A DNA stretch of 35,474 nt from assembly GCA_013151635.1 (NCBI GenBank), contig JAADHV010000036.1, forward strand, positions 1 through 35,474, written 5' to 3'. Positions within the stretch are counted from its first letter, which is position 1. Each line of letters opens with the position of its first letter. The DNA is from Deltaproteobacteria bacterium (lineage in GTDB: Bacteria; Desulfobacterota; Desulfobacteria; Desulfobacterales; Desulfobacteraceae). Below, one piece after another: positions 9,747-29,553 of the stretch. Made by a program: the position numbers and the translations under genes. Under the pieces are notes generated by a model that saw only the letters and a program-made list of their open reading frames with translations, ran no database searches and had not been told where the DNA came from.

Positions 9747-10928
9747 TTAAAGTGAATCTATTGCCCTGGCAATTTTTCCCATGGCAGCGGCAATGGTTTT
9801 TTCATCAGCCATGGTATAATTCAGCCGCATGGTTTCAATACCTTCGTTTTCATTGGTGAAAAAGAATTTCCCCGGCACAAATGCCACATTGTTTTCAATT
9901 GCTTTGTGATAAAGTTTTATCATATCAAAGCCACAAGGTCCTGTGACCCATAGAAACATGCCCCCGTCCGAGGGAGAGCATGCAAATTCACCTGGCAGTT
10001 TTTCTTTTATGGCGGACAGCATTGCTGACTGCCTGGGCCTGTAAAGGCTTATGATTTCAGGCAGGTGGGAATCAAGGTATTTGCCTTTCAGGTATTCGGC
10101 GGCCAGGGCCTGGTTAAAGGTGCTGGTGTGAAGGTCAACCCCCTGTTTTACCAGGACAAGCCATTGGCTTAAGAATTCCGGGGCAACGTAAAATCCTATC
10201 CTTAAGCCTGGTGCAAAAATTTTTGAAAGCGTACTGATATAGATGACATTATCCGGTGCCATGGTCTTTATGGCAGGAATATCTTCCCCTTTGTACCGTA
10301 AAGCGCTGTAAGGATCATCTTCCACCAGAAGGGCGTTGTATCTTTTTATAATGCTTGCAATCCGTATCCTGCGCTCCAGGGTAATTGTCCTGCCTGTCGG
10401 GTTCTGGAATGTAGGAACCAGGTATATGAATTTAATTTTATTTGTTTTAAGTGTTTCTTCAAGGGATTCAGGCACAAGTCCCTCATCATCCATATCCATC
10501 CTGATATATAAAGGTTCGTAAGGATTGAAGGCGGAAAGGGCCCCTAAATAAGTTGGGGCTTCCAGGGCAATTTTATCACCCTTTGAAATCAATAGTTTGG
10601 CCACGGCATCAAGAATCCCCTGGGAGCCCGAGGTGATATTGACATTTTCTGTTGTCGCTGTTATCCCCCGGGATTCAAGAAGGAGTGATATCTGTTCCCG
10701 CAAGGGTATAAAACCTTCGGTCAGATCGTATTGGAATGCTCTGGACGAATATTTTGTCAATACCCTGTCTGTTAATTCCCTCATAATATCCATGGGGAAA
10801 CTTTCAGGTGACGGTATGCCTCCGGCAAGAGAGACCACCCCTGGTTTGGAAACAACCTTTAAAATTTCCCTTATGGCATTGGCTGTCATTAATCTGGTCC
10901 TGCTTGAAAGAAGTGCTTCAAAGTTCAT
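9747..10928 (-). CDS. PLP-dependent aminotransferase (class I/II, LysN/2-aminoadipate-transaminase-like)
   Basis: This fold-type I aminotransferase has 393 residues. The start resembles the LysN/ARO8-like group (SLAGGIPSPESFP). Key residues are NPTG (Asn176), the VEDDPYSALRY segment (Asp205, Tyr207), the Schiff-base lysine in STLSKIFAPGLRIGF (Lys236) and the C-terminal MRLNY arginine. Substrate is not resolvable from sequence; members act on aromatic amino acids, 2-aminoadipate or branched-chain amino acids. ATG 10928 follows CAGGAGTAGGATT. It is 35 bases downstream of the small selenoprotein candidate on the same strand, so the two are probably co-transcribed. Confidence 0.9.
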   Translation of the reverse strand: MNFEALLSSRTRLMTANAIREILKVVSKPGVVSLAGGIPSPESFPMDIMRELTDRVLTKYSSRAFQYDLTEGFIPLREQISLLLESRGITATTENVNITSGSQGILDAVAKLLISKGDKIALEAPTYLGALSAFNPYEPLYIRMDMDDEGLVPESLEETLKTNKIKFIYLVPTFQNPTGRTITLERRIRIASIIKRYNALLVEDDPYSALRYKGEDIPAIKTMAPDNVIYISTLSKIFAPGLRIGFYVAPEFLSQWLVLVKQGVDLHTSTFNQALAAEYLKGKYLDSHLPEIISLYRPRQSAMLSAIKEKLPGEFACSPSDGGMFLWVTGPCGFDMIKLYHKAIENNVAFVPGKFFFTNENEGIETMRLNYTMADEKTIAAAMGKIARAIDSL

Positions 10929-10963: not shown

Positions 10964-11146
10964 TTACAACCTGTCTATTGGAACATTGGCCAGTTCATCC
11001 TCAAGATAGCCGTCCATGAGATCTTTATATTTGTCTTCAGGATAATTTGTTGTGCAGGACCTGCAGCAAAAATAAACCTTTGTTCAGGTTTGTTTGATAT
11101 AAAGCTGTCCTCCGCAGTTCAGGCATTTTTCTTTTATGTCTTTCAA
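10964..11146 (-). CDS. Small dual-CXXC selenoprotein with in-frame UGA (Sec21)
   Basis: Reading from TTG 11146 (after AAAGGATAAA, in-frame stop just upstream) gives MKDIKEKCLNCGGQLYIKQT, then TGA at 11084-11086, then TKVYFCCRSCTTNYP and on to IPDRL-type end (IDRL) and TAA at 10964: 60 residues. Cysteines form CLNC (8-11) and CRSC (28-31) around Sec21. The frame stays open and sensible for 39 codons after the TGA. The pattern matches what I know as the dual-CXXC small (seleno)protein family of Desulfobacterota, which has Cys or Sec at this place. A hairpin like the E. coli fdhF SECIS follows the TGA. Function unknown; two CXXC pairs suggest metal or redox chemistry. It precedes the aminotransferase gene on the same strand. 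If Sec were not inserted, only a 20-residue stub would result. Confidence 0.85.
11050..11069 (-). promoter_or_regulatory. Putative bacterial SECIS hairpin
   Basis: Starting 14 bases after the UGA, the minus strand forms TTG-(C bulge)-TGCAG-GTC-CTGCA-CAA: a stem with a bulged base and a short apical loop bearing GU. The apex GCAGGUC is the same as in the E. coli fdhF SECIS, where the bulge and loop GU bind SelB. Placement is about 4 bases further from the UGA than in fdhF. Confidence 0.75.
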
Positions 11147-11248
11147 TATATTTATCCTTTATCTTTTAATATCTTGCGGATAAAATAAAGCTAAAAAGGA
11201 TAAAAGTCAAAAATAATAAGGAAAAGATGACAGGAGACAAAAATATCA

Positions 11249-11731
11249 ATGGCGGAAAATAACGACAGATACAATCGAAACTATCCCATTTCCTGGGAGC
11301 AGCTTCACAGGGACTCAAAAGCCCTGTCATGGAGACTGCATGACAGGCAGGAAGAATGGAAAGGGATTGTTGCTGTAACCCGTGGAGGACTTGTCCCTGC
11401 TGCGGTCATTGCACGGGAGCTTGGGATACGGTATATTGATACTGTATGTATCACTAGTTATGACTGGAAAGAGCAGGGTGAAACAGAAATTTTAAAAAAG
11501 GTGGATGGTTCAGGTGATGGACTTCTGATCATAGATGACCTTGTGGATACGGGTTTGACAGCCAGAGTTGTCAGGAAAATGCTGCCGGATGCCTATTTCG
11601 CAACCGTATATGCCAAGCCTGCGGGGAAACCCATGGTGGACGCTTATGTGACGGAAGTCAGCCAGGACACCTGGATTCTCTTCCCATGGGATTCAGAGTC
11701 CCAATTTGTAGAACCCATTGCCGGGAAATAG
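11249..11731 (+). CDS. gpt: Xanthine/guanine phosphoribosyltransferase
   Basis: This purine-salvage enzyme transfers PRPP ribose phosphate to xanthine/guanine (and weakly hypoxanthine). It has 160 residues versus 152 for E. coli Gpt. The N-terminal YPISWEQLHRDSKALSWRL, the VTRGGLVPAAVIARELGIRY segment and the PRPP-binding loop LLIIDDLVDTGLTA (about 91-104) are diagnostic. The C-terminal TWILFPWD is the family purine-binding motif. ATG 11249 follows AGGAGA at somewhat long spacing (about 12 bases). It is divergent from the selenoprotein/aminotransferase pair and convergent with argG across a shared hairpin. Confidence 0.92.
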   Translation: MAENNDRYNRNYPISWEQLHRDSKALSWRLHDRQEEWKGIVAVTRGGLVPAAVIARELGIRYIDTVCITSYDWKEQGETEILKKVDGSGDGLLIIDDLVDTGLTARVVRKMLPDAYFATVYAKPAGKPMVDAYVTEVSQDTWILFPWDSESQFVEPIAGK

Positions 11732-13511: not shown

Positions 13512-14135
13512 CTATTTTGCTGTAAGCGTAATGACCACCCTTGTTCCGTCAGGTGGAAGAACGTCCTTGTTGCCTTTCATGGAGACTTCTTTCCTTTTTA
13601 AAACAGCCCCGTAGGTATATACTGAATTGCTGACAATGCCGACAGGGCAGGAGTCAAGACATAAAAGGCAGCCGGTATTTTTATCTTTGGCGTTTTTAAG
13701 ATTGCCCCCGAATTTCATGACAATTGGAGTGTGATTTGATTCATCTATCACTTCATCAATGGTATACGCACGGTCCGCACCTTTCCAGGTGACAGTGACG
13801 GCAAATTCCTGGCCCTCAACATGGGTGACTTCTTTGTTTTTAAGGCTCATGTTATTACCTGGAACAGCATTGATTTTTAGAAGGGCATTATAAAAATCAA
13901 GATGCGAAACCAATCCTCTGAAGACTGCTTTTTCACCATTGCTTCCTTTTTCATAGACTGCAAAATGCCGGGTGGGTTGAAACATGTATTTCCCGTTCAC
14001 TTCAGCCAGAAAAGAGACTGTTTTTTTATCTTTATCAAAGGTAATAGGGTTTTCCCTTGTCAGGCCAAGCCCGGCAAAGGCATCCATCGTAAAAAAAAAT
14101 AAAAGACCTGCGATAATCAAGAATTTTTTTGTCAT
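13512..14135 (-). CDS. Exported YdjY-like protein with CXXC motif
   Basis: This 207-residue protein has an N-terminal signal peptide (MTKKFLIIAGLLFFFTMDAFA). A YdjY-type domain follows: NPITFDKDKKTVSFLAEVNG, then TRHFAVYEKGSNGEKAVFRG, a region usually marked by a conserved stretch before NAVPGNN. Near the C-terminus GCLLCLDSCPVGIVSN has three cysteines that could bind metal or a cluster. In E. coli ydjY lies between the TVP38-family genes ydjX and ydjZ; here it directly follows a TVP38 fusion (4-base ATGA overlap). That conserved pairing supports a joint function, which remains unknown. Confidence 0.78.
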   Translation of the reverse strand: MTKKFLIIAGLLFFFTMDAFAGLGLTRENPITFDKDKKTVSFLAEVNGKYMFQPTRHFAVYEKGSNGEKAVFRGLVSHLDFYNALLKINAVPGNNMSLKNKEVTHVEGQEFAVTVTWKGADRAYTIDEVIDESNHTPIVMKFGGNLKNAKDKNTGCLLCLDSCPVGIVSNSVYTYGAVLKRKEVSMKGNKDVLPPDGTRVVITLTAK

Positions 14136-15949
14136 ATTCCGTTTTTTCCTTTTTTCATGATTTTATTGTAAATGACAGGGATTAAAGAGACCATAACAAT
14201 CAACACAAGCCCGATAATAAATTCTTTTGAGAGCTTTCCTTGCACCAAGTCCAAAAGTGAGCTTGAAAACACAATAAATGCAATGCAGGCAGGCAGCATG
14301 CAGATAAAAGTAGCAATGATATAATGGGAAAATTTAATCTTTGTCAACCCAAATGCATAATTTAATAAATTAAACGGGAAAAGGGGTATCAGCCTTGTCA
14401 GCGCGACAGCCTTCCATCCGTGTTTTTTAACATTGTCCTGAAGTTTGATCCATTTAGGGCCGGTCAGTTTTGATTCAATAAAATCTGACGATATATACCG
14501 GGATATTAAAAAAGCAATCCCGGCCCCGGTTGTTGCACCTGTAATGGAATAGACGATGCCCCAGACCGGGCCGAACAGAATGCCGCCGGCAATGGTGATG
14601 GGAAGGCCCGGTAAAAACAGTGCCGGTGCAAGGGCATAAACAAGCATATATATCACAGACCCTAAGTTCCCGCTTTCATGAATCAGCCCGCTTAATTTTC
14701 CCGGATCCAGGTATGCGAGTGCTCCTGCAGCCCTGGTCCAGGCAATGGCAGCGATGATCAATCCTGCAAAGATAAGCTTTAGCACTACACCGTTCCTTCT
14801 TTTTTTTTCAAAAGCTGTATATGTTCTTTCCCTTGTGGTTTTTGCCGGTTTTCTTTTAAGTTTTCTTTTAAGTTTCAGCCGGTTCAGATAGGTAAAGGGC
14901 GGTTTAGAAATTTTGGCTTTTCCTGCCATGGTTTTTTCAGGGTCAAACACCAGGTCCAGAACATGAAAGGCATCGCTGCTTTTCGACAGCAGGTTAACGC
15001 ACCCGGCACAATAGCTCACAATTTTATGTGGAGAGGCTTCATTAACCCTTTTTCTTTTCCATGTTTGGGCAAATCCAGGAGATACGCATGCGACACTGCC
15101 ACCTTCACCGCAGCAGAAAGTCTTTGATTTCTGATGGGGAGTATCAACGATTTCAAGGCCCTTTTTTCTTAGAACTGACCGGACAGAATCCTGTATGCTT
15201 TTTTCAAACCGCATAGGGCAGGGGTCGTGGATGGTAATTTGACCGGAAATTTTTCTGGTATCATCAAACCCGAACCGGGAAATAATATCATACACGGTTT
15301 CCACCTTGAATTCTTTTCCATAGGTATTAAAAATTTTATGGCAGTTGGGGCAGGCAACAATGATGGTTTTAATCTTATGTTTTATAAGAAAGGATTTCAT
15401 TTCAAAAAACATCTCATTAAAATAATCCTGTCTTCCGAGGTCATGTGAAACTTTAGTGCAGCAGTCCAGTACAATCCCTGTGTTTTCAACCTGTTTTTTT
15501 AAATATTCAAAGGTATTTAAAGTGTTGGCGGGACGGGTTCCTGCCAGTGTGCAGCCTGGAAAGAAAACGGTATCACAGTTTTCAGGCAAGCTGTAAAGAG
15601 AATACTTTTTTGAATTCCCCTTTTTTTCATAGTTTAAAAGTGTCTTATGTTTGGAAAAATTAATCAGGCCTTTTTTGACGGCTTCCTTCCTGAGGTCAAG
15701 GAACCAGGCTGCCGGATCAAGCTCTTTCGGGCAGACAGATGTACACAAGCCGCAAAGGCTGCATTCAAAGGAAATACCAAGCCATCTGCCCGGATCAGCC
15801 TTGTAATTTTCTGCTATGGATCCAGGATTCCCGTAAGTCATAAGAAATCCGCATTCTTTTTTACAGACACCGCATTCGTTGCAGGTGTCAGCCATTGCAT
15901 TGGTCACATAAAATTTTAGATCTTGAGTGATATCGGAACCTCTGAACAT
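14132..15949 (-). CDS. Fusion: GlpC/HdrD-like CCG iron-sulfur protein + TVP38/TMEM64 (DedA-like) membrane domain
   Basis: The N-terminal half (about 1-350) has two [4Fe-4S] motifs, CNECGVCKKEC (C23-C33) and CSLCGLCTSVC (C63-C73). Two CCG-type cysteine domains follow (FFPGCTLAG, CPNCHKIF, then TFCCGEGGSVACVSPG and YCAGCVNLL), as in HdrD/GlpC. A basic linker (LKRKLKRKPAKTTRERTY) leads to a TVP38/TMEM64 domain (about 400-605) with PGLPITIAGGILFGPVWG and LTRLIPLFPFNLLNYAFGLT. So a cytoplasmic redox module is covalently tied to a membrane protein of the YdjX/YdjZ family. ATG 15949 follows AAAGGGGAA. It is first in an operon with the YdjY-like and small membrane genes. Substrate unknown. Confidence 0.9.
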   Translation of the reverse strand: MFRGSDITQDLKFYVTNAMADTCNECGVCKKECGFLMTYGNPGSIAENYKADPGRWLGISFECSLCGLCTSVCPKELDPAAWFLDLRKEAVKKGLINFSKHKTLLNYEKKGNSKKYSLYSLPENCDTVFFPGCTLAGTRPANTLNTFEYLKKQVENTGIVLDCCTKVSHDLGRQDYFNEMFFEMKSFLIKHKIKTIIVACPNCHKIFNTYGKEFKVETVYDIISRFGFDDTRKISGQITIHDPCPMRFEKSIQDSVRSVLRKKGLEIVDTPHQKSKTFCCGEGGSVACVSPGFAQTWKRKRVNEASPHKIVSYCAGCVNLLSKSSDAFHVLDLVFDPEKTMAGKAKISKPPFTYLNRLKLKRKLKRKPAKTTRERTYTAFEKKRRNGVVLKLIFAGLIIAAIAWTRAAGALAYLDPGKLSGLIHESGNLGSVIYMLVYALAPALFLPGLPITIAGGILFGPVWGIVYSITGATTGAGIAFLISRYISSDFIESKLTGPKWIKLQDNVKKHGWKAVALTRLIPLFPFNLLNYAFGLTKIKFSHYIIATFICMLPACIAFIVFSSSLLDLVQGKLSKEFIIGLVLIVMVSLIPVIYNKIMKKGKNGI

Positions 15950-21519: not shown

Positions 21520-22232
21520 AGAGAACAGGGACACTGCTATTATTTGTATTTCTTTTTTTCTTTTTAGCGTCAGGGGTAGTACTTGCCGGAAAAATCAGTC
21601 GTGTTAATTTCGACAATGAGGTTGCTGGTGCACCATCGAAATTTTTTAGCTCGTTTGTGGGGACCTGGTATATACTTAAGGATGGTAAGGATATAGTTTA
21701 TGCGGTTGATGGCAGAAAATGGGCGAGGGGAACGATGTCCGCCGGAATTGCGGATAAAGCAAAGGCATTATATGGGCAACGGTATGCCGAGTTTTTAGAC
21801 AGCCTTGCGGCATACAGATATTTCCCGCTGACTATTTATCAAGGAATCAAGGATGTTAACAGCGGAACCATATCCGTATCTTTTAAGGCAATTGATGGCC
21901 GAATTGACCAGGCTGCCGGTATTGCATTTAATATCAAACAAAATGGTGATTATCTGGTTATAAGAGCAAATCCACTTGAAAATAACATGGTAGCTTTCAA
22001 AATGGAGCGAGGTCACCGCTCCGTCGTGCAATGGATACGAAATATTCCCATAAAATCAAAAAAATGGTATACTTTAAAAGTAGTTATCGATGGTGAGAAG
22101 GCCGAGGGTTATCTGAATAACAAACGATATATCAGCTTTAAATATAAGAAGAAGATAGATGGCAAGCTTGGTTTATGGTCAAAATCTGATTCCCATGTCT
22201 TCTTTGATAACTTTTTTGTGCAGCCAAAATAA
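21516..22232 (+). CDS. Secreted concanavalin-like / DUF1080-like domain protein
   Basis: This 238-residue protein has a signal peptide (MKRTGTLLLFVFLFFFLASG through VVLAG, cleavage about residue 25). The mature part has two 3-keto-disaccharide-hydrolase/laminin-G-like beta-sandwich traits: VNFDNEVAGAPSKFFSSFVG with TWYI, then AAGIAFNIKQNGDYLVIRAN, WYTLKVVIDGEKAEGYLNN and KLGLWSKSDSHVFFDNFFV. Such domains bind or cleave glycans, but no catalytic residues can be assigned. It overlaps the permease by 4 bases and ends exactly where homology to a decayed minus-strand alkylsulfatase begins, so it is likely the last gene of an inserted cassette. Confidence 0.8.
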   Translation: MKRTGTLLLFVFLFFFLASGVVLAGKISRVNFDNEVAGAPSKFFSSFVGTWYILKDGKDIVYAVDGRKWARGTMSAGIADKAKALYGQRYAEFLDSLAAYRYFPLTIYQGIKDVNSGTISVSFKAIDGRIDQAAGIAFNIKQNGDYLVIRANPLENNMVAFKMERGHRSVVQWIRNIPIKSKKWYTLKVVIDGEKAEGYLNNKRYISFKYKKKIDGKLGLWSKSDSHVFFDNFFVQPK

Positions 22233-22830
22233 ATTGTGGCATCGCCGAACAGGTTGATGGCCTCATCAATATAACCGCTCCATTTCAGCGCGTCACGGAC
22301 CTTGGCCCCGCGCAGCGTGTATAAATTGTGCATATTGTGAGAAAGCAGTTCAGCCCCGAAAAAGGCTTTAATATCCGGCAGATAAAAGGTCAGCTCTGCC
22401 GGCGCTTCTGATTCCGGTGTGTATTGAAAAACAAAGCGAATCCCATCAATTGTCATTTCCTGGCCTGTTCTATCTACAAGCTCGGTGGGGCTCATAATGC
22501 CAAAGCTTCCAAAAGGGGTTGCTTTGCCCAGCCCGTTGTCCACATGCCCCCGCACAGAAGGCACAAGGTTTTTGCCATACATATGCAGCCCGACGTCCCA
22601 TGGCTATGCCCGCAATGATATTTTCACTGGTGGCAGCCTCCAGAAATCCCTTGGGCGCAATAATACGGACCTTGTGCCTGGCCGCTTCTTCAGGCAACAT
22701 CACGCCCAGCACTCCTCCAAAATGGTCGATGTGGCTGTGAGAATAAATAATGGCCACAACGGGCTTTTTCCCCAGATGCCTGCGGCCAAAGGATCTTGAA
22801 CGTCGGTTAGGTGTGAGCCCCGCCCAGATC
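22233..22830 (-). pseudogene. Alkyl/aryl sulfatase (SdsA/BDS1-type metallo-beta-lactamase fold), frameshifted and truncated
   Basis: Minus strand segments match alkylsulfatases. In one frame: HLGKKPVVAIIYSHSHIDHF (zinc motif HxHxDH), APKGFLEAATSENIIAGIAM and GRRAAY. In another frame: MYGKNLVPSVRGHVDNGLGK, EMTIDGIRFVFQYTPESEAP, AELTFYLP, HNLYTLRGAKVRDALKWSGY. The shift falls at about 22579-22586, explained by loss of two bases in a TATATG run before MYGKNL. The N-terminal ~150 residues and all sequence after FGDATIYFG are absent; the 3' side stops at 22233 where the ABC cassette ends. Not functional. Confidence 0.85.
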
Positions 22831-22859
22831 AAAGACCCTGACGCTTGATATTGCAAGGT

Positions 22860-23360
22860 CTCTTGCCAGAAGCGACTTTAACCCTGTGGAGGTGCGTTTT
22901 GAACATATGGAACCTGGATTACGCCAATGAGTATGATAAAGTCTTCAGAGCGCCCATATTATTTCAACAGCCGGAAAACATGATTATTTGTCAAAAGAAA
23001 CACTTTCTGGCACCCATAATATCCCGGGACCCCAATCTTCAGGCTGCTCTAAAGAATTATGCTGAAAGATCATTAGAGGAACAAAGCAATATAGAATCAT
23101 TGCAGGTCAAAGTGCGCAAATATATTATTAACCGCCTCCCTGATGGCGGGATTAATATGAAAAGCATTTCAAAAGCCATGAATATGGATTCCAGCACATT
23201 GTACAGACAGCTGAAAAAGGAGGGCGTTACCTTCAGGGATTTGTTGCACAAAACAAGGCAGGAGCTGGCAAAAAGCTATTTGCTTCAGGGCTTGACCAGT
23301 TCACAGGTTACGTATCTTCTTGGTTTTTCCGAGCCGGCCCCTTCTGCCTGCCCCCGGTAG
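22860..23360 (+). pseudogene. AraC-family regulator, truncated and frameshifted
   Basis: The longest open part (to TAG 23358) has an AraC DNA-binding region: INMKSISKAMNMDSSTLYRQ, LKKEGVTFRDLLHKTRQELA, KSYLLQGLTSSQVTYLLGFS. It breaks at GFSEPA, just before the expected F-x-RAF-KRW motif, by a frameshift. The N-terminal effector domain is represented by SDFNPVEVRFEHMEP (about 22873-22917) in one frame and YANEYDKVFRAPILFQQPEN in another. So at least two frameshifts plus 5' and 3' loss. It is convergent with the LutAB gene, only 8 bases from its stop. Confidence 0.78.
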
Positions 23361-23368
23361 CCCCTGTT

Positions 23369-25354
23369 TTATGTTGATGATGATCCTGAAGGTTGAATGA
23401 TCTGGCTTAAATGTTTTACCTCAATATTTCTTTTCTGCTTTAATGCTCCACCTCTAAGCTGCATAACACATCCCGGGCATTCGGTCACCAGAAGATCAGC
23501 TCCTGATTTTTCAACATCATCAAGTTTTCGTGTCAAAATTCCTTTTGAAACCGATGGGAAATTAGCTGAAAAACTGCCTCCGAATCCACAACAGGTCTCT
23601 TCCTCATCAGTTTTGATATATTCATGCCCGGATTTGGCAATCAATTTTTTCGGATCATCTTTGATACCGAGCCCCCGGCACAGATGGCAGGGAGAATGAA
23701 AGGCTGTTTTCCTGGGAATGGAATTGCCCCTGATATGTTCAATCCCTATAACCTTATTAATAAACTGGCTGAACACTATCACTTTGTCAGAGAATTGGGC
23801 AGCCTTGTTTCCTGCATATTCCTCAACAAGATCGGGAACATGGTTTTTAAGGTGGGATGCACAGGAGGCACAAAGGGTGACAATATAATCGATATTAAGT
23901 TCTTTAAAGGCATTGATATTCTGAAGGCCCAGGTCTTTCGCTGCTTGTTTTTCACCCATCATCAATACTGGAAGTCCACAGCAGGACTGGTCCAGAGGAA
24001 ATTCAACCTGTACCTTTGCCTGATTAAACAATGCCATGGCAGCTTCCAATTGTTCCGGGTAAACAAAATCCTGGACACAGCCGGAAAACAGGGCAATTTT
24101 GCACGTTGGATTTTTAACTTTCGAGCGCAAGGTTTCAAACCGGTCCCTGAAAGGTTTATCTGTAATGGCCGGCAGAACCCTGAAATTATGGTCTTTTGAA
24201 AATATCATGGGAAGATGACGCAAATAAGGGGTTGCGCCTCTAACGTGTTTCTGGGCAAGGCTTGCAGTCCTCAAAAGTGTATGAAACAGCTTCCGGTTTT
24301 TCAACACTTTTCCCAATAGTAAACTTTTTAAAGGATGTCCTAGTTCATCCTGGATTCTGGCATGGATTTCCTTGATGAGCCCTGGCAGATCAATCCCCCC
24401 TGCACAGACTGCTTTACAGGCTCCGCAATTGGTACAGTTTTGAACAAGGTTCTTTGCATTCTCTCTGCCATGGAAAAAATAAGTGGTAATAAGGCCAATG
24501 GCCCCGATATAGATATACCCGAGCCCATGTCCGCCGACCATTCGGTAAACAGGGCAGACATTGGCGCAGGCCCCGCACCTGATGCATTGAAGTACCTGGG
24601 CAAATAGAGGGTCCTGTGCAATTTTTTTCCGGCCGTTATCCAGAAAGACAATATGCATCTGCCGTTTTTTCCCCTTTGTTATCTTGCATTCCGAAGGCCC
24701 GGTTATCCACATGGTTCCTGTTTCTGAAATGGCAAAGTTGGCCCCGGTAATTCCCATATCCGCTTCTATATATTTTTTTCTGAGCTGTCTTCTGGCCACT
24801 TTTACAAGTTTTTCTATCTTTACGTCCTGATGTTTTTTCGTGACATCAGAAAACAAATCCGCCACCTGGTATCGTGACAGGTGAATGGCCGGCATGACCA
24901 TGTGGGAAGGGCCTTCTTTTCTCATTTGCACAATCCATTCCCCAAGGTCTGTTTCTGTAACCTCAAGCCCTTTGTTTTCAAGCCATTGATTCAAATGGAT
25001 CTCTTCAGCGGTCATGGATTTTGATTTTATGATTTTTTTGGAATGGGTTTGTTCTGCAATTTGTGCAATGATCTTGTTGGCGTTTTCAGCCGTATCTGCC
25101 AGATGAACTTTAATGCCGGCTTTTTCTGCTTTTAAAATAAACCTGGAAAGCAGGTGATCAATGTTTTTTACAGCATTGGCTTTAACAGCTGCCACTTCTT
25201 TGACAGTTGCGTCCATATCCATTTCAGAGAACGCATTGAGTCTTGACGTTCTGTACGCCACAGCAAAATTATCCATGGCTGTTCTTAAAAAATCATTTTT
25301 CAGGGCATTGTCAAGCCTGTCTTTATATTCTTTAAAGCTTTCATTTTCTTTCAT
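23369..25354 (-). CDS. LutAB-type fusion: LUD domain + 2x[4Fe-4S] + two CCG domains (L-/D-lactate oxidation)
   Basis: About 661 residues that join LutB and LutA. The LUD domain comes first (EADMGITGANFAISETGTMW, about 199-218), then CIRCGACANVCPVY (about 257-270) and CTNCGACKAVC (about 310-320) for two [4Fe-4S] clusters. Two cysteine-rich CCG units close it (FSGCVQDFVYPEQ with SCCGLPVLMMGEKQA, and FHSPCHLC with TCCGFGGSFSANFPSV). The same fusion next to lutC is known in Desulfovibrio (DVU3033/DVU3032), where it is tied to lactate oxidation. ATG 25354 has AGGGGG upstream; a TTG two codons earlier is less likely. It starts 2 bases after the LUD-protein stop. Confidence 0.9.
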   Translation of the reverse strand: MKENESFKEYKDRLDNALKNDFLRTAMDNFAVAYRTSRLNAFSEMDMDATVKEVAAVKANAVKNIDHLLSRFILKAEKAGIKVHLADTAENANKIIAQIAEQTHSKKIIKSKSMTAEEIHLNQWLENKGLEVTETDLGEWIVQMRKEGPSHMVMPAIHLSRYQVADLFSDVTKKHQDVKIEKLVKVARRQLRKKYIEADMGITGANFAISETGTMWITGPSECKITKGKKRQMHIVFLDNGRKKIAQDPLFAQVLQCIRCGACANVCPVYRMVGGHGLGYIYIGAIGLITTYFFHGRENAKNLVQNCTNCGACKAVCAGGIDLPGLIKEIHARIQDELGHPLKSLLLGKVLKNRKLFHTLLRTASLAQKHVRGATPYLRHLPMIFSKDHNFRVLPAITDKPFRDRFETLRSKVKNPTCKIALFSGCVQDFVYPEQLEAAMALFNQAKVQVEFPLDQSCCGLPVLMMGEKQAAKDLGLQNINAFKELNIDYIVTLCASCASHLKNHVPDLVEEYAGNKAAQFSDKVIVFSQFINKVIGIEHIRGNSIPRKTAFHSPCHLCRGLGIKDDPKKLIAKSGHEYIKTDEEETCCGFGGSFSANFPSVSKGILTRKLDDVEKSGADLLVTECPGCVMQLRGGALKQKRNIEVKHLSQIIQPSGSSST

Positions 25355-25356
25355 GA

Positions 25357-25785
25357 TCAACCCCCTGTCAGCATGATATGAAGTTCCAAAGGCCCGTGAA
25401 CACCAAGGGCAAGGACCCTTTCAATATCCGCTGTTCTGCTTGCGCCTGTTATAAATGCAGTAGATGAGGGCTGTCTTATCATTTCATCGAGTTCGTCTGA
25501 CATTTCAAGGGCTGTTTTGCGGATATTAGATTTTTCAAGAATGGCAACATGGGTTTCACACAACATGGTAGACAGTCTTGTCTCCTCGGAATCCGACTTA
25601 AGAACAAGGGTTCCGGTTTCTGCGATTCCAAAATCCATCAGGGTCACCCCCATCTCTATCCCTCCGGGAAATTTGCGCAAGCCCTCATTTATAAGGGTTA
25701 TGCCATTTGCTTTACAAAAAGACTGCAAAAGTTCAAACATTGGTCCGGCAAGTATGCTCCCCATAACTGACAAGATCAAAATCAT
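25357..25785 (-). CDS. Short LutC-like LUD domain protein
   Basis: The sequence ITLINEGLRKFPGGIEMGVT, LMDFGIAETGTLVLKSDSEE, ITGASRTADIERVLALGVHGPLELHIMLTGG (in part SRTADIERVLALGVHGP) is the C-terminal two thirds of LutC, a subunit of lactate dehydrogenase LutABC. Usual LutC is about 200 residues or more; here at most 142, with the N-terminal part missing. The start is uncertain: ATG 25785, 25764 or 25740, none with a clear ribosome binding site. All overlap the end of the upstream dehydrogenase-CobT gene, so translation is probably coupled. It may be a naturally short form or an N-terminally trimmed gene. Confidence 0.75.
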   Translation of the reverse strand: MILILSVMGSILAGPMFELLQSFCKANGITLINEGLRKFPGGIEMGVTLMDFGIAETGTLVLKSDSEETRLSTMLCETHVAILEKSNIRKTALEMSDELDEMIRQPSSTAFITGASRTADIERVLALGVHGPLELHIMLTGG

Positions 25786-27982
25786 AGGAGGGACCCCATG
25801 CGGCCTCTATACTATTCTTGCGGCTTTCAACATGACCAGGATTGAGACGGAAGAATTTTAATAACGGTTTTATGACTTTATGGAAGATCTTTCTTGCGAT
25901 CTTGGCCTCATCAAACGAGGCCATCTGGCACATGATCTTGCAGGCTGCATCAGCCATGTCAATGGCAAGAGCTGCACCTGTGCCTTCGCCAAGGCGCATA
26001 TCAAAATCGATCAGGGGTACAAGATTCATGTGGGAAAGCGCAGCTTTCTGTGCCTGTTCCACGGATTTATGGCCGGATATGAGGTATCCTTGAATTGAAG
26101 GATTGATAATATAGGCCACAAGTCCAGCAGCAGTTGAAATAACCCCGTCAAGCACAACAGCAGTCTTTTTGGAAGCTGCCGCAAGAACCGCACCTGCAAT
26201 ACCCGCGATTTCGAATCCACCGATTTTCTGAAGAATTTCAAACCCGTTGCCAGGATCAGGACTGTGAAATTGCAGGGCCCTTTCAATGACCTTTGTTTTG
26301 TGTAAAAGCCCCTTGTCGTCCACGCCTGTTCCTCTCCCTATGGCCATGCCAGGTGGTATCCCGGTAATAACGGAAATAATCGCAGAGGCAGAAGATGTAT
26401 TGCCAATGCCCATTTCTCCCATCCCCACGATATCGACAGGGTGCCTGTCATATGTGGTAAGAAAGGTGGACATCCCGTTTTCAAGGGCCGTGATCACCTG
26501 CTGTTCTGTCATGGCGTTTTCAATGGCAAAGTTTCTTGTTCCCCTGGCAACTTTTTTCATGACCAGGTCCGGGTGGGGCAAAAAATTATAGTTGACGCCC
26601 ATGTCCACTATTTTCATCTCTATGTCATGGTGCCGGCAAAGGACATTGATGGCAGCTCCGCCGTTTAAAAAATTATCCACCATCTGGGCTGTGACCTCGG
26701 CTGGGTAAGCTGAAACACCTTCTTCTGTGATTCCGTGGTCTCCTGCAAACACAAACAGGTTTTTTTGCAGTATCCTGGGATTGAGATCGTTTTGGATGAG
26801 GCTCATTCTGATGGCAAGGTCTTCGATGCGGCCAAGGGCGCCAAGGGGTTTTGTCTTGTCGTCGATTTTAGAAGTTGCAGCGGCAAGCTTATTGTCTGAC
26901 AAGGGGGTAATAGTTTCAATCACCTTTCTGCAAAGGCTGTCTGGCGTAAGCTCATTCAGCCTGGCGGGAGACTTGGCTTTTTGTCCGGGTTCATCCGGCA
27001 CTGTGTCAGATGCAAGTCTGAAATCAAGGATGTATTTCAGGTGTTTGCCACAAAGCACATCCGGCATAAGTTGCAAGGCTTTCTCCGGGGCAACAATATC
27101 TTCAATCAAAAGCATGAGTTCTCTTTCATGGGCCTGCATAAACGGGACAGCCTTTTCCATGTGGTCCCGTGTCATTCCGTAAACACCGGTTACTACAGCT
27201 TCTTTGTAGTGGATAAGATTGAGAAGGTTGGTTTCAATGTGTTCATTTTTTGAAATCCCGCTGAAAAAAGAAATCCTGCCTGCTTTGCCGAGCTTGGCAA
27301 TGCCCTGGCAAAATGCAATGTAATCAGCGCAGGTATTGATCACCAGTTCAAATTCACTCTCATGGGTATCTTTGGTACAGGCTATACCGGTTGCCCCAAG
27401 ATATGGGGCAACATGTTTTATTTTTGCCTCATCCTTTTCAATTATGTGAGGGATCAAGCCTGAATGATGGGCATAAAGAGCCGTGATCAAACCCATGGTG
27501 CCGGCACCTAAAACCAGTATCCGGTCATTTTTTTGCGCACTTAATTTTTCAAAAGCATTGATTACGCATCCGACCGGCTCTGCAAAGCAGGCCACATGGG
27601 TGTTAAGATCATCGGGAAGAGGAATCAGGCTTTTTTCCGGCAGGACAGCCCTGTCTGCAAAGCCTCCGTCTGTATGAAATCCTGTTATTTTCATATCTTC
27701 ACAGAGGTTTTCCCTGCCGGTTTTACAAAACCTGCATGTGCCGCAGCTTTTCCCGGGCCAGACAATATGCCTTTTCCCGGTATGGTCTTTGACCACCATT
27801 TCATGGCCAAGAACCCTTGGAAAAACAAGATCCCTGTGGCCCTGTTCCCACATTTTGGCATCTGTCCTGCAGATGGCGCAGCAAAGGACACGGGTTTTGG
27901 TGAATCCTTTTTCAAGCTTTCCTGTTTCTTGATCACCATGTCCTGTTTCAAGCGTTTTCAGGCCGGTCAGCACCATTTTCAT
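25733..27982 (-). CDS. cobT: Fusion: zinc-dependent MDR dehydrogenase + CobT (nicotinate-nucleotide:base phosphoribosyltransferase)
   Basis: This is a 749-residue protein. Residues 1-330 are a medium-chain dehydrogenase: catalytic-site CCAICRTD (about 34-41), GHE (59-61), structural zinc CGTCRFCKTGRENLC (80-94), NAD loop LGAGTMGLI (158-166). Residues about 340-695 are CobT: DKTKPLGALGRIEDLA (about 375-390), FAGDHGITEEGVSAYPAEVT, GEMGIGNTSSASA (522-534) and RLGEGTGAALA (663-673) containing the catalytic Glu666. CobT makes the alpha-ribotide of the lower ligand of cobamides. About 50 extra residues follow the usual CobT end. It lies 3 bases after the 66-residue gene in the riboswitch operon. 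The dehydrogenase may act on the base precursor or an unrelated alcohol; substrate unknown. Confidence 0.92.
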   Translation of the reverse strand: MKMVLTGLKTLETGHGDQETGKLEKGFTKTRVLCCAICRTDAKMWEQGHRDLVFPRVLGHEMVVKDHTGKRHIVWPGKSCGTCRFCKTGRENLCEDMKITGFHTDGGFADRAVLPEKSLIPLPDDLNTHVACFAEPVGCVINAFEKLSAQKNDRILVLGAGTMGLITALYAHHSGLIPHIIEKDEAKIKHVAPYLGATGIACTKDTHESEFELVINTCADYIAFCQGIAKLGKAGRISFFSGISKNEHIETNLLNLIHYKEAVVTGVYGMTRDHMEKAVPFMQAHERELMLLIEDIVAPEKALQLMPDVLCGKHLKYILDFRLASDTVPDEPGQKAKSPARLNELTPDSLCRKVIETITPLSDNKLAAATSKIDDKTKPLGALGRIEDLAIRMSLIQNDLNPRILQKNLFVFAGDHGITEEGVSAYPAEVTAQMVDNFLNGGAAINVLCRHHDIEMKIVDMGVNYNFLPHPDLVMKKVARGTRNFAIENAMTEQQVITALENGMSTFLTTYDRHPVDIVGMGEMGIGNTSSASAIISVITGIPPGMAIGRGTGVDDKGLLHKTKVIERALQFHSPDPGNGFEILQKIGGFEIAGIAGAVLAAASKKTAVVLDGVISTAAGLVAYIINPSIQGYLISGHKSVEQAQKAALSHMNLVPLIDFDMRLGEGTGAALAIDMADAACKIMCQMASFDEAKIARKIFHKVIKPLLKFFRLNPGHVESRKNSIEAAWGPSYDFDLVSYGEHTCRTNV

Positions 27983-28187: not shown

Positions 28188-29291
28188 TTATTCCACCAGG
28201 CTGTGAAGCTTTGTTAATCCTTTTTTTGGATCAGTGTTCTGGGCTCCTACCCATTTTTCAAGGGTTTCAAAGGCTGTGCCTGCTTCCAGGAGTTTTGTTG
28301 CCTGTTCAATCCCGCCTTCCAGGTCTTTTGATTTCCCTGCTGCAAGGAAAATCAGGCCTGCATTGAGCAATGCGGCATCCTTTCTTGCACTGTTTTCCCT
28401 GTTTGCCAAGAGTGCGGCAAATCGTTTTGACTCTGTTTCAATATCTTTTTCAGGCGACAGCATATTGTAATCTTTTGTGGCAAGACCAAGTTTTTTGGGG
28501 TCAATGGTGAATTCATTGATCCCGTCTTTTTCAGAAATTTGAGCGCAATGGGTAATGCCGCAGACCGAGGCCTCATCCATCCCCTTGTCTGAATCATCAA
28601 TGGACCCGTGCAGCACAATGGCGCTTTTATAGCCGATTTCCTGCATAACATCTGCCACCGGCAGTATCATTTCTTTTGAATAGACTCCCCGGACTCCGAT
28701 GGAAGGAAGGGCCGGGTTTGCAAGGGAAGCTGCAATATTAAGGGTTGACCCGAAATAAATCCGGGACAATATTCTGCCAAGGGCCATGGGGTGAATATTG
28801 GGGCTCATGCCGTTGAAGAGCCCAAGGCCCACATTTTCTATGCTTTTAGCAACAGTATCTGCTGTGCATTCCACATCAACACCCAGGGCTTCCGCCATGT
28901 CAACGGTTCCACAAATAGAGGTAATGGCCCTGGCACCGTGTCTTGCCATTGGAATATTTCCTGCGGCCGCAATAATAGAGGCTGCAGTACTTATGTTGAA
29001 GGTTTTAAAGGTGTCCATGCCGGTGCCGCTGTTATCAACGGTTTTGATTTCCTTGCTCAAGCTTACCTTTGTGGTATCAAGTTCGTAAATGGATTCCCAT
29101 GATCCTGCAACTTCTTCTTTTGTTTCGCCCTTGGCTGTCAGGGCTGCCAGAAAGGCGCCCTGCTGCATGTCCGTGACGTCATTATTTAAAATTAAAACAA
29201 ACGCATCCCTGGCTTCATTCCTGGTAAGATTTTCTTTCTGGATGAGACGGGTGATAATATTTCCGAATTCCCGGTTCAATGTCTGAGACAT
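28188..29291 (-). CDS. TrpD-like phosphoribosyltransferase under cobalamin control
   Basis: This 367-residue protein has the anthranilate phosphoribosyltransferase (TrpD/glycosyltransferase family 3) fold. N-terminal helices include LTRNEARDAFVLILNNDVTDMQQGAFLAALTAKG-type spacing (part DMQQGAFLAALTAKGET). The PRPP loop is SGTGMDTFKTFNISTAAS rather than the usual GTGGD, then MARHGARAITSICGTVDMAE and LHGSIDDSDKGMDEASVCGI near the C-terminal half. No trp genes are near. The riboswitch leader and the downstream CobT fusion point to a cobamide role, such as making a base ribotide, rather than tryptophan synthesis; this is inference. ATG 29291 has AGGAGG. Confidence 0.82.
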   Translation of the reverse strand: MSQTLNREFGNIITRLIQKENLTRNEARDAFVLILNNDVTDMQQGAFLAALTAKGETKEEVAGSWESIYELDTTKVSLSKEIKTVDNSGTGMDTFKTFNISTAASIIAAAGNIPMARHGARAITSICGTVDMAEALGVDVECTADTVAKSIENVGLGLFNGMSPNIHPMALGRILSRIYFGSTLNIAASLANPALPSIGVRGVYSKEMILPVADVMQEIGYKSAIVLHGSIDDSDKGMDEASVCGITHCAQISEKDGINEFTIDPKKLGLATKDYNMLSPEKDIETESKRFAALLANRENSARKDAALLNAGLIFLAAGKSKDLEGGIEQATKLLEAGTAFETLEKWVGAQNTDPKKGLTKLHSLVE

Positions 29292-29298
29292 AAATATA

Positions 29299-29348
29299 CC
29301 TCCTGAATAGTTTTATTCAAAAGGATTTTGTCCCAGCTTAAGAATCCT
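29299..29348 (-). promoter_or_regulatory. Expression platform of the cobalamin riboswitch: RBS sequestor and anti-sequestor
   Basis: On the minus strand CCTTTTGAAT (29324-29315) can pair with ATTCAGGAGG (29308-29299), hiding the AGGAGG ribosome binding site of the TrpD-like gene. AGGATT (29348-29343) can instead pair with AATCCT (29327-29322), which overlaps the sequestor arm. The two foldings are mutually exclusive, the layout of a translation-control switch. Confidence 0.75.
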
Positions 29349-29349
29349 G

Positions 29350-29542
29350 AAATTTTGTATGCAGGCAGGCTTTTCGACTTACGGATCATCCTAATTACTG
29401 CGTCTTCCCCTTTTATTAAAAAAGAGTGACTTATTGCAGTTTTCGTCCCCGATCACGGCAACGGCTGGCATGTGACGGACTTGCACCGTCTTTCCTTTTA
29501 CCTTGGAATTTGAACTGTAATAAATCCCAAGCACCTTTATAC
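29350..29542 (-). ncRNA. Cobalamin (B12) riboswitch
   Basis: On the minus strand the leader carries the family landmarks in order: AAAGGTGCTTGGG (about 29538), AAGGAAAGACGGTGCAAGTCC (core GGTGCAAGTCC about 29490-29480), a CCGTTGCCGTGATCGGGGA hairpin, TCACTC, GGGGAAGACGC, GATGATCCGTAAGTC and the B12-box-like GAAAAGCCTGCCTGC (about 29375-29361). Spacing and order match known deltaproteobacterial cobalamin riboswitches. It precedes the TrpD-like gene and the CobT fusion, consistent with B12 feedback. Confidence 0.88.
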
Positions 29543-29553
29543 CTTAAAAATGT

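Follow-up and report, generated by a model that had tools for sequence, protein, structure and literature searches.

We identified a gene for a 60-residue protein on the minus strand of a 35,474-nucleotide stretch of deltaproteobacterial DNA (contig JAADHV010000036.1, hereafter "the window"). It is very probably a real selenoprotein gene of the NF041197 family, with an in-frame UGA that would be decoded as selenocysteine (Sec). Comparison supports this assignment well: the frame is coding on either side of the UGA, Sec and Cys interchange at this codon among homologs, the SECIS hairpin is conserved and the sel genes are present. The gene, its parts and its neighbors are as follows.

10964-11146, minus strand: predicted dual-CXXC small selenoprotein gene, 60 residues plus stop, Sec as residue 21; matched by NF041197.2
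11084-11086, minus strand: in-frame TGA, read here as selenocysteine (codon 21); the same column is TGA or Cys in relatives
11045-11073, minus strand: SECIS hairpin, with a conserved core at 11051-11067 and the apical loop G at 11060
11114-11125, minus strand: first CxxC, at residues 8-11; a predicted zinc knuckle whose C8 and C11 do not vary among 54 aligned members
11054-11065, minus strand: second CxxC (residues 28-31), predicted zinc knuckle, within the SECIS; C28 and C31 invariant in 54 members
11155-11160, minus strand: AAAGGA, a probable ribosome binding site that precedes the TTG start
11249-11731, plus strand: gpt, xanthine phosphoribosyltransferase, divergent neighbor; NF006613, 253.5 bits (cut-off 138)
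9747-10928, minus strand: PLP-dependent aminotransferase, downstream on the same strand; Pfam PF00155, 101.3 bits
11786-13015, minus strand: argG, argininosuccinate synthase; NF001770, 557.2 bits (cut-off 334)

The first-pass annotation had described a protein of 60 residues with the UGA at 11084-11086 as codon 21, a CxxC on either side and 39 codons after it, and both the coordinates and the translation agree with this. It had placed the gene between gpt and an aminotransferase, and both neighbors were matched by family search (NF006613 and PF00155). The start codon is probably TTG at 11144-11146. A TTG start with AAAGGA upstream is kept in four of five near relatives, and ATG is found in one. 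The ORF listing shows no ORF of 80 or more residues under the standard code on the minus strand at 10964-11146. The accompanying statement that a normal gene caller sees nothing here holds for callers that lack a model of the family but was too broad, as an annotation pipeline equipped with the NF041197 model should find the gene. Within the window, 102 TGAs have an open frame for 20 codons before and 35 codons after them. Only the one at 11084-11086 has a CxxC on both sides, so the find is above chance level; a loosely SECIS-like hairpin occurs at 19 of the 102, this TGA among them.

The read-through protein matched NF041197.2 with 67.2 bits (cut-off 40) over profile positions 1-53 of 53. The full name of this NCBIfam family is CxxC_Se_CxxC, "dual CXXC motif small (seleno)protein," and it is the family to which the protein had been related before any search was run. 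The two CxxC motifs around a Sec or Cys that characterize NF041197 are present as C8/C11, Sec21 and C28/C31. A profile search of the source genome returned a single NF041197 match, at 10964-11146, containing one TGA. With the 60-residue protein as query, Pfam gave no match above cut-off, and a protein search of a plasmid collection gave no match. In a scan of named genomes, we found four relatives at 68-77% identity, from two Desulfobacula MAGs, one Desulfobacteraceae MAG and one deltaproteobacterial MAG. The gene at 10964-11146 is a further member of an already catalogued family.

In the available text of PMC13188914, two proteins are listed under NF041197, OS_HP3 with an RxU motif and hypothetical protein DW with a GxU motif. 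According to the accessible portion of the deep-Sep paper (PMC12013277), DW was reported as new, and OS_HP3 of Desulfosarcina widdelii PP31 escaped the method. The protein SMF39960.1 is given as OS_HP3 in the available part of PMC9312934 and as DW in that of PMC13188914, so the two names may overlap. No function or structure of the family was found in the accessible portions of these three papers or in literature searches. The window protein resembles OS_HP3 and the NF041197 profile in score, full-length match and both CxxC motifs. It has QTU, whereas the RxU of OS_HP3 has Arg two residues before Sec; otherwise there is no difference of substance. GxU-type sequences, as in DW, have Sec at the same column as the window protein but, unlike window-type members, are without the C-terminal NRL/DRL tail, and they score lower. 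Three of them, tested as proteins against NF041197, gave 47.3, 46.0 and 35.3 bits (cut-off 40). Judged by its motif, the GxU branch is probably the DW branch. A second GxU-type relative with a TGA occurs in several genomes (L148-L159 and L162-L167, e.g., L155:4980-5147), and these second relatives did not reach the family cut-off when genomes were searched.

We aligned the fetched loci (186 stretches, 149 of them distinct), setting aside one fragment of the frameshifted L057 that is without the codon-21 column. In this non-random sample, which combines the best-scoring matches with stretches picked for spread, codon 21 is TGA in 114 of the 149 distinct sequences, TGC or TGT in 34 and TGG in one (L091). 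The in-frame UGA is thus aligned with Sec or Cys in 148 of 149, the two residues that the first-pass annotation had proposed to look for at position 21, and the exception is the TGG of a damaged gene. In L091 the first CxxC is disrupted and the SECIS apex is still present. It was counted as a damaged gene or a sequencing error because the first Cys is absent in frame. That TGG is what might be cited in favor of reading the UGA as tryptophan, or as another residue that is not Sec. However, the N-terminal part of L091 is disrupted, lacking the first Cys in frame, other non-Cys sense codons at position 21 are absent among the 149 sequences, and the source genome has the full Sec machinery. We consider such decoding exceedingly improbable.

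Sec and Cys forms occur together within three genera. These are f1-g3 (TGA in L065 and L066; Cys in L063, L064 and L076), f31-g44 (TGA in L081; Cys in L080) and f112-g189 (TGA in L172; Cys in L173). In f1-g3, a gpt neighbor is common to L064, L065, L066 and L076 but not to L063. The Sec and Cys loci of f31-g44 have one neighbor in common, and those of f112-g189 have different neighbors. Based on the shared neighbors, the exchange of Sec and Cys seems to have occurred in place in two of the three genera. SelB is present in all nine genomes behind these examples, so loss of the Sec trait does not account for their Cys forms.

The Cys forms in SelB-keeping genomes also count against a regulatory role for the UGA, in which partial termination would act as a selenium-sensing switch that leaves a 20-residue leader at low selenium. 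The aminotransferase gene, on the same strand and 38 nt past the matched end, gives this idea some appeal in the window; however, the following gene varies between lineages, and we regard a switch as very unlikely.

Downstream of the UGA in both the window gene and fdhF of E. coli K-12 we found the 8-mer UGCAGGUC. It lies at the apex of the hairpin that follows the UGA in each gene, which bears out the earlier description of an fdhF-like SECIS apex. The two encoded proteins are presumably unrelated. The 8-mer starts 18 nt after the UGA in the window gene and 14 nt after the UGA (codon 140) in fdhF, that is, 4 nt further from the UGA in the window gene, and the predicted lower stem also differs. 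The predicted apical loop of the window hairpin is GUC, with the loop G 23 nt after the UGA. This falls within the range of 16-37 nt given for the apical-loop G of bSECIS elements in the available text of PMC13188914. Considered by itself, the window hairpin is weak, because 6% of synonymous recodings are equally stable (z-score -1.60). The single hairpin is unconvincing alone, and it is comparative data that carry the case for the predicted selenoprotein.

In a first set of 66 Sec genes (67 with TGA minus the frameshifted L057), the seven-pair stem is paired in 422 of 462 cells, compared with 121-251 of 462 when the 3′ side is shifted by 1-3 nt. The outermost pair varies among G-C, T-A, A-T and C-G. 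A hairpin of at least 4 pairs with an apical G is found in 61 of the 66 and in none of the eight Cys forms of this set; 200 synonymous recodings of the 66 gave 11.0 on average and never more than 20. A larger set comprised 113 Sec genes (114 minus L057) and 34 Cys genes, in which the apical-G hairpin is found in 94 and one, respectively. Nineteen of the 113 Sec genes fail the strict hairpin test, and seven of the 113 are without a G where the loop should have it. On visual inspection, the hairpin of several GxU-type genes seems shifted in register.

These comparisons bear on a rival view in which translation really ends at the UGA and the stretch is either what decay has left of a Cys gene or an overlap artefact. 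In its favor, neither half reaches the length that a normal gene caller needs, and L057, a near relative, is a family copy with a frameshift. On the other hand, the TGA is kept in 114 of the 149 distinct sequences with conserved sequence after it, and the SECIS is conserved relative to synonymous controls. In comparisons with five near relatives of the window gene, 29-33 of the 39 codons downstream of the UGA are either unchanged or synonymous, in keeping with the coherent frame that had been noted there. We therefore consider a genuine stop highly improbable and treat the UGA as a predicted Sec codon.

The SECIS core overlies the codons of the second CxxC. Counted as sequences uncorrected for relatedness rather than as independent events, 69 of the 113 Sec forms have Arg at the first x of this motif, and none of the 34 Cys forms does. 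The codon for this Arg is AGG in 60 of the 69, compared with 26 of the 209 other Arg codons found soon after the UGA; in the first set, the figures are 50 of 55 and 3 of 102. Given its distribution between Sec and Cys forms, the Arg looks to be imposed by the SECIS. The simplest reading is that the CRSC typical of Sec forms would be imposed by the hairpin and relaxed upon exchange of Sec for Cys.

The source genome has selA, selB, selD and tRNA-Sec, all above cut-off. The tRNA-Sec is the least specific of these components, since its model also exceeded the gathering score in 5 of 14 control genomes. Three selD-like matches above cut-off were detected in the source genome (L019, L020 and L021), two of them with an in-frame TGA. 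The first-pass annotation had named three observations that would speak against a selenoprotein: homologs with neither Cys nor Sec at position 21, a genome devoid of sel genes, and absence of conservation after the UGA. All three were looked for, and none held.

We searched for the family in genomes of the order and the phylum. It is present in 252 of 389 genomes of the order sample at E 0.001 (238 above cut-off) and in 112 of 395 genomes of the phylum sample (88 above cut-off), and none of the 14 control genomes has a match. SelB was detected at E 1e-60 in 329 of the 389 order genomes. Both the family and SelB occur in 226 of these, the family only in 26, SelB only in 103 and neither in 34. 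The 26 family-positive genomes without SelB weigh against the selenoprotein reading, although SelA is present in 23 of them. The assemblies of many of the 26 are fragmented or incomplete, but that of G042 is 97% complete and has about 50 contigs. In the phylum sample, 52 of the 112 family-positive genomes were tested for SelB and 51 have it, the exception being G498 (76% complete).

Five columns are invariant in the 54 aligned members (C8, C11, Sec/Cys21, C28 and C31), and E49 is found in at least 90% of them. When the profile of the 54 members was compared with the PDB, the best match was 2jrp (E 4.4e-5), followed by weaker matches to HypA, RPA12 and LysW; we take the matched chains to be zinc ribbons. 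The likeness to the ribbons YfgJ (2jne), 2jrp, LysW, RPA12 and HypA consists of weak profile alignments, and we know of no Sec in the inter-knuckle hairpin of those proteins. An AlphaFold model from four sequences (pLDDT 66.6) had helices and no ribbon and was discarded as poor, so the fold assignment is a purely sequence-based one. The product is predicted to be a small zinc ribbon with a Cys4 site and an exposed selenol. Since zinc needs no more than four Cys, the working group is likely to be the invariant fifth position.

Two other ideas about the protein were rejected. A LysW-like carrier was considered because argG and an aminotransferase gene are nearby and argJ is found elsewhere. An acidic tail is a feature of LysW-type proteins; the sequence here has none, and the LysW match in the PDB profile search was only E 0.043. 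Fusion proteins were suggested by family-containing open frames of 352, 502, 526 and 580 residues (the last in G110). The long frames of L045, L088 and L089, three of the four, were taken as chance, since a Met lies directly before the domain.

We propose that SelB with Sec-tRNA(Sec) would read the UGA at 11084-11086, directed by the hairpin at 11045-11073 that overlaps the second-CxxC codons. In the protein, Cys8, Cys11, Cys28 and Cys31 would hold zinc, and Sec21 would lie at the exposed tip of the inter-knuckle hairpin, near basic residues, as a reactive selenol. Most likely this selenol would react, by redox or electrophile chemistry, with a partner that is a thiol, a selenol or a soft metal. 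This is our first choice, and we give a redox role an even chance. Our second choice is that Sec21 mainly binds or delivers a soft metal or metalloid (mercury, arsenic, copper or selenium), in which case the protein would not be a redox catalyst but a small metallochaperone or sensor. The five invariant Cys/Sec positions in the 54 aligned members would suit such a function, and the accessible text of PMC13188914 mentions possible metal binding by Sec in certain other selenoproteins. Two recurrent neighbors of the family also resemble transporters, an AEC-like one at 16 of 65 loci and a chloride-channel-like protein at 15 of 65. However, no metal-resistance genes were recognized among those recurrent neighbors that were identified. 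We consider metal binding possible but less likely than the proposed redox chemistry.

The AEC-like and chloride-channel-like proteins were named by reading their sequences, and the former had no NCBIfam match. Among the recurrent neighbors, family search identified argJ, truA, an rRNA-type pseudouridine synthase, gpt, pyrE, alaS, topA and fabD. In the fetched stretches around the 65 first-set loci, the commonest neighbors are argJ (28), truA (28) and the rRNA-type pseudouridine synthase (25). Thirteen loci have a gpt-type gene next to them, although L055 and L059, both counted here, are the same contig stretch. By our own sorting, ten loci form a Cys-only branch with IHEVA-like and IIYD motifs. 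In nine of the ten (L176-L182, L184 and L187) the gene directly follows pyrE, and the tenth has no upstream gene called. The occurrence of two phosphoribosyltransferase neighbors in different branches is suggestive, not more. No universal gene partner was found among the recurrent neighbors, and as these differ by lineage, we draw no function from the neighborhood.

The window also contains the following other genes. A 749-residue fusion joins an alcohol-dehydrogenase-like domain to CobT (PF02277). Before it comes a gene for a TrpD-type phosphoribosyltransferase, which itself follows a cobalamin riboswitch.

25733-27982, 28188-29291 and 29347-29553, minus strand: region of the fusion, the TrpD-type gene and the cobalamin riboswitch

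This region possibly specifies an unusual cobamide lower-ligand chemistry. A fusion of a dicluster Fe-S/CCG protein with a VTT membrane domain (14132-15949, minus strand) adjoins a YdjY-domain protein (13512-14135, minus strand). It shows partial likeness to NF045663, "diclust_near_Sec" (230 bits against a cut-off of 530), and an ORF listing with TGA as Sec gave no convincing extra selenoprotein near it. The overlapping frames at 22109-23360, with a metallo-beta-lactamase-fold fragment and a short AraC-type HTH protein, look like decayed genes. At 23369-25360 on the minus strand is an LdhH-type quinone L-lactate dehydrogenase subunit (892 bits, cut-off 800).

A broader picture, which we offer as a long shot, is that NF041197 is a superfamily of stand-alone zinc ribbons whose sole catalytic group is the selenol or thiol at the tip. 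It would have at least three branches (RxU, GxU and Cys-only after pyrE), be kept through much of the phylum and serve as a sensor of redox state or a regulator, linked to the metabolism of nucleotides or tRNA. In its Sec branches, the RNA hairpin, not the protein, would have chosen the residues of the second knuckle.

The gene recovered here from raw sequence is one that stop-codon-based annotation cuts short. The Sec and Cys forms within three genera, with SelB kept, are a natural comparison of what Sec buys. The same comparison bears on how a SECIS lying over a zinc-knuckle motif may constrain the protein.
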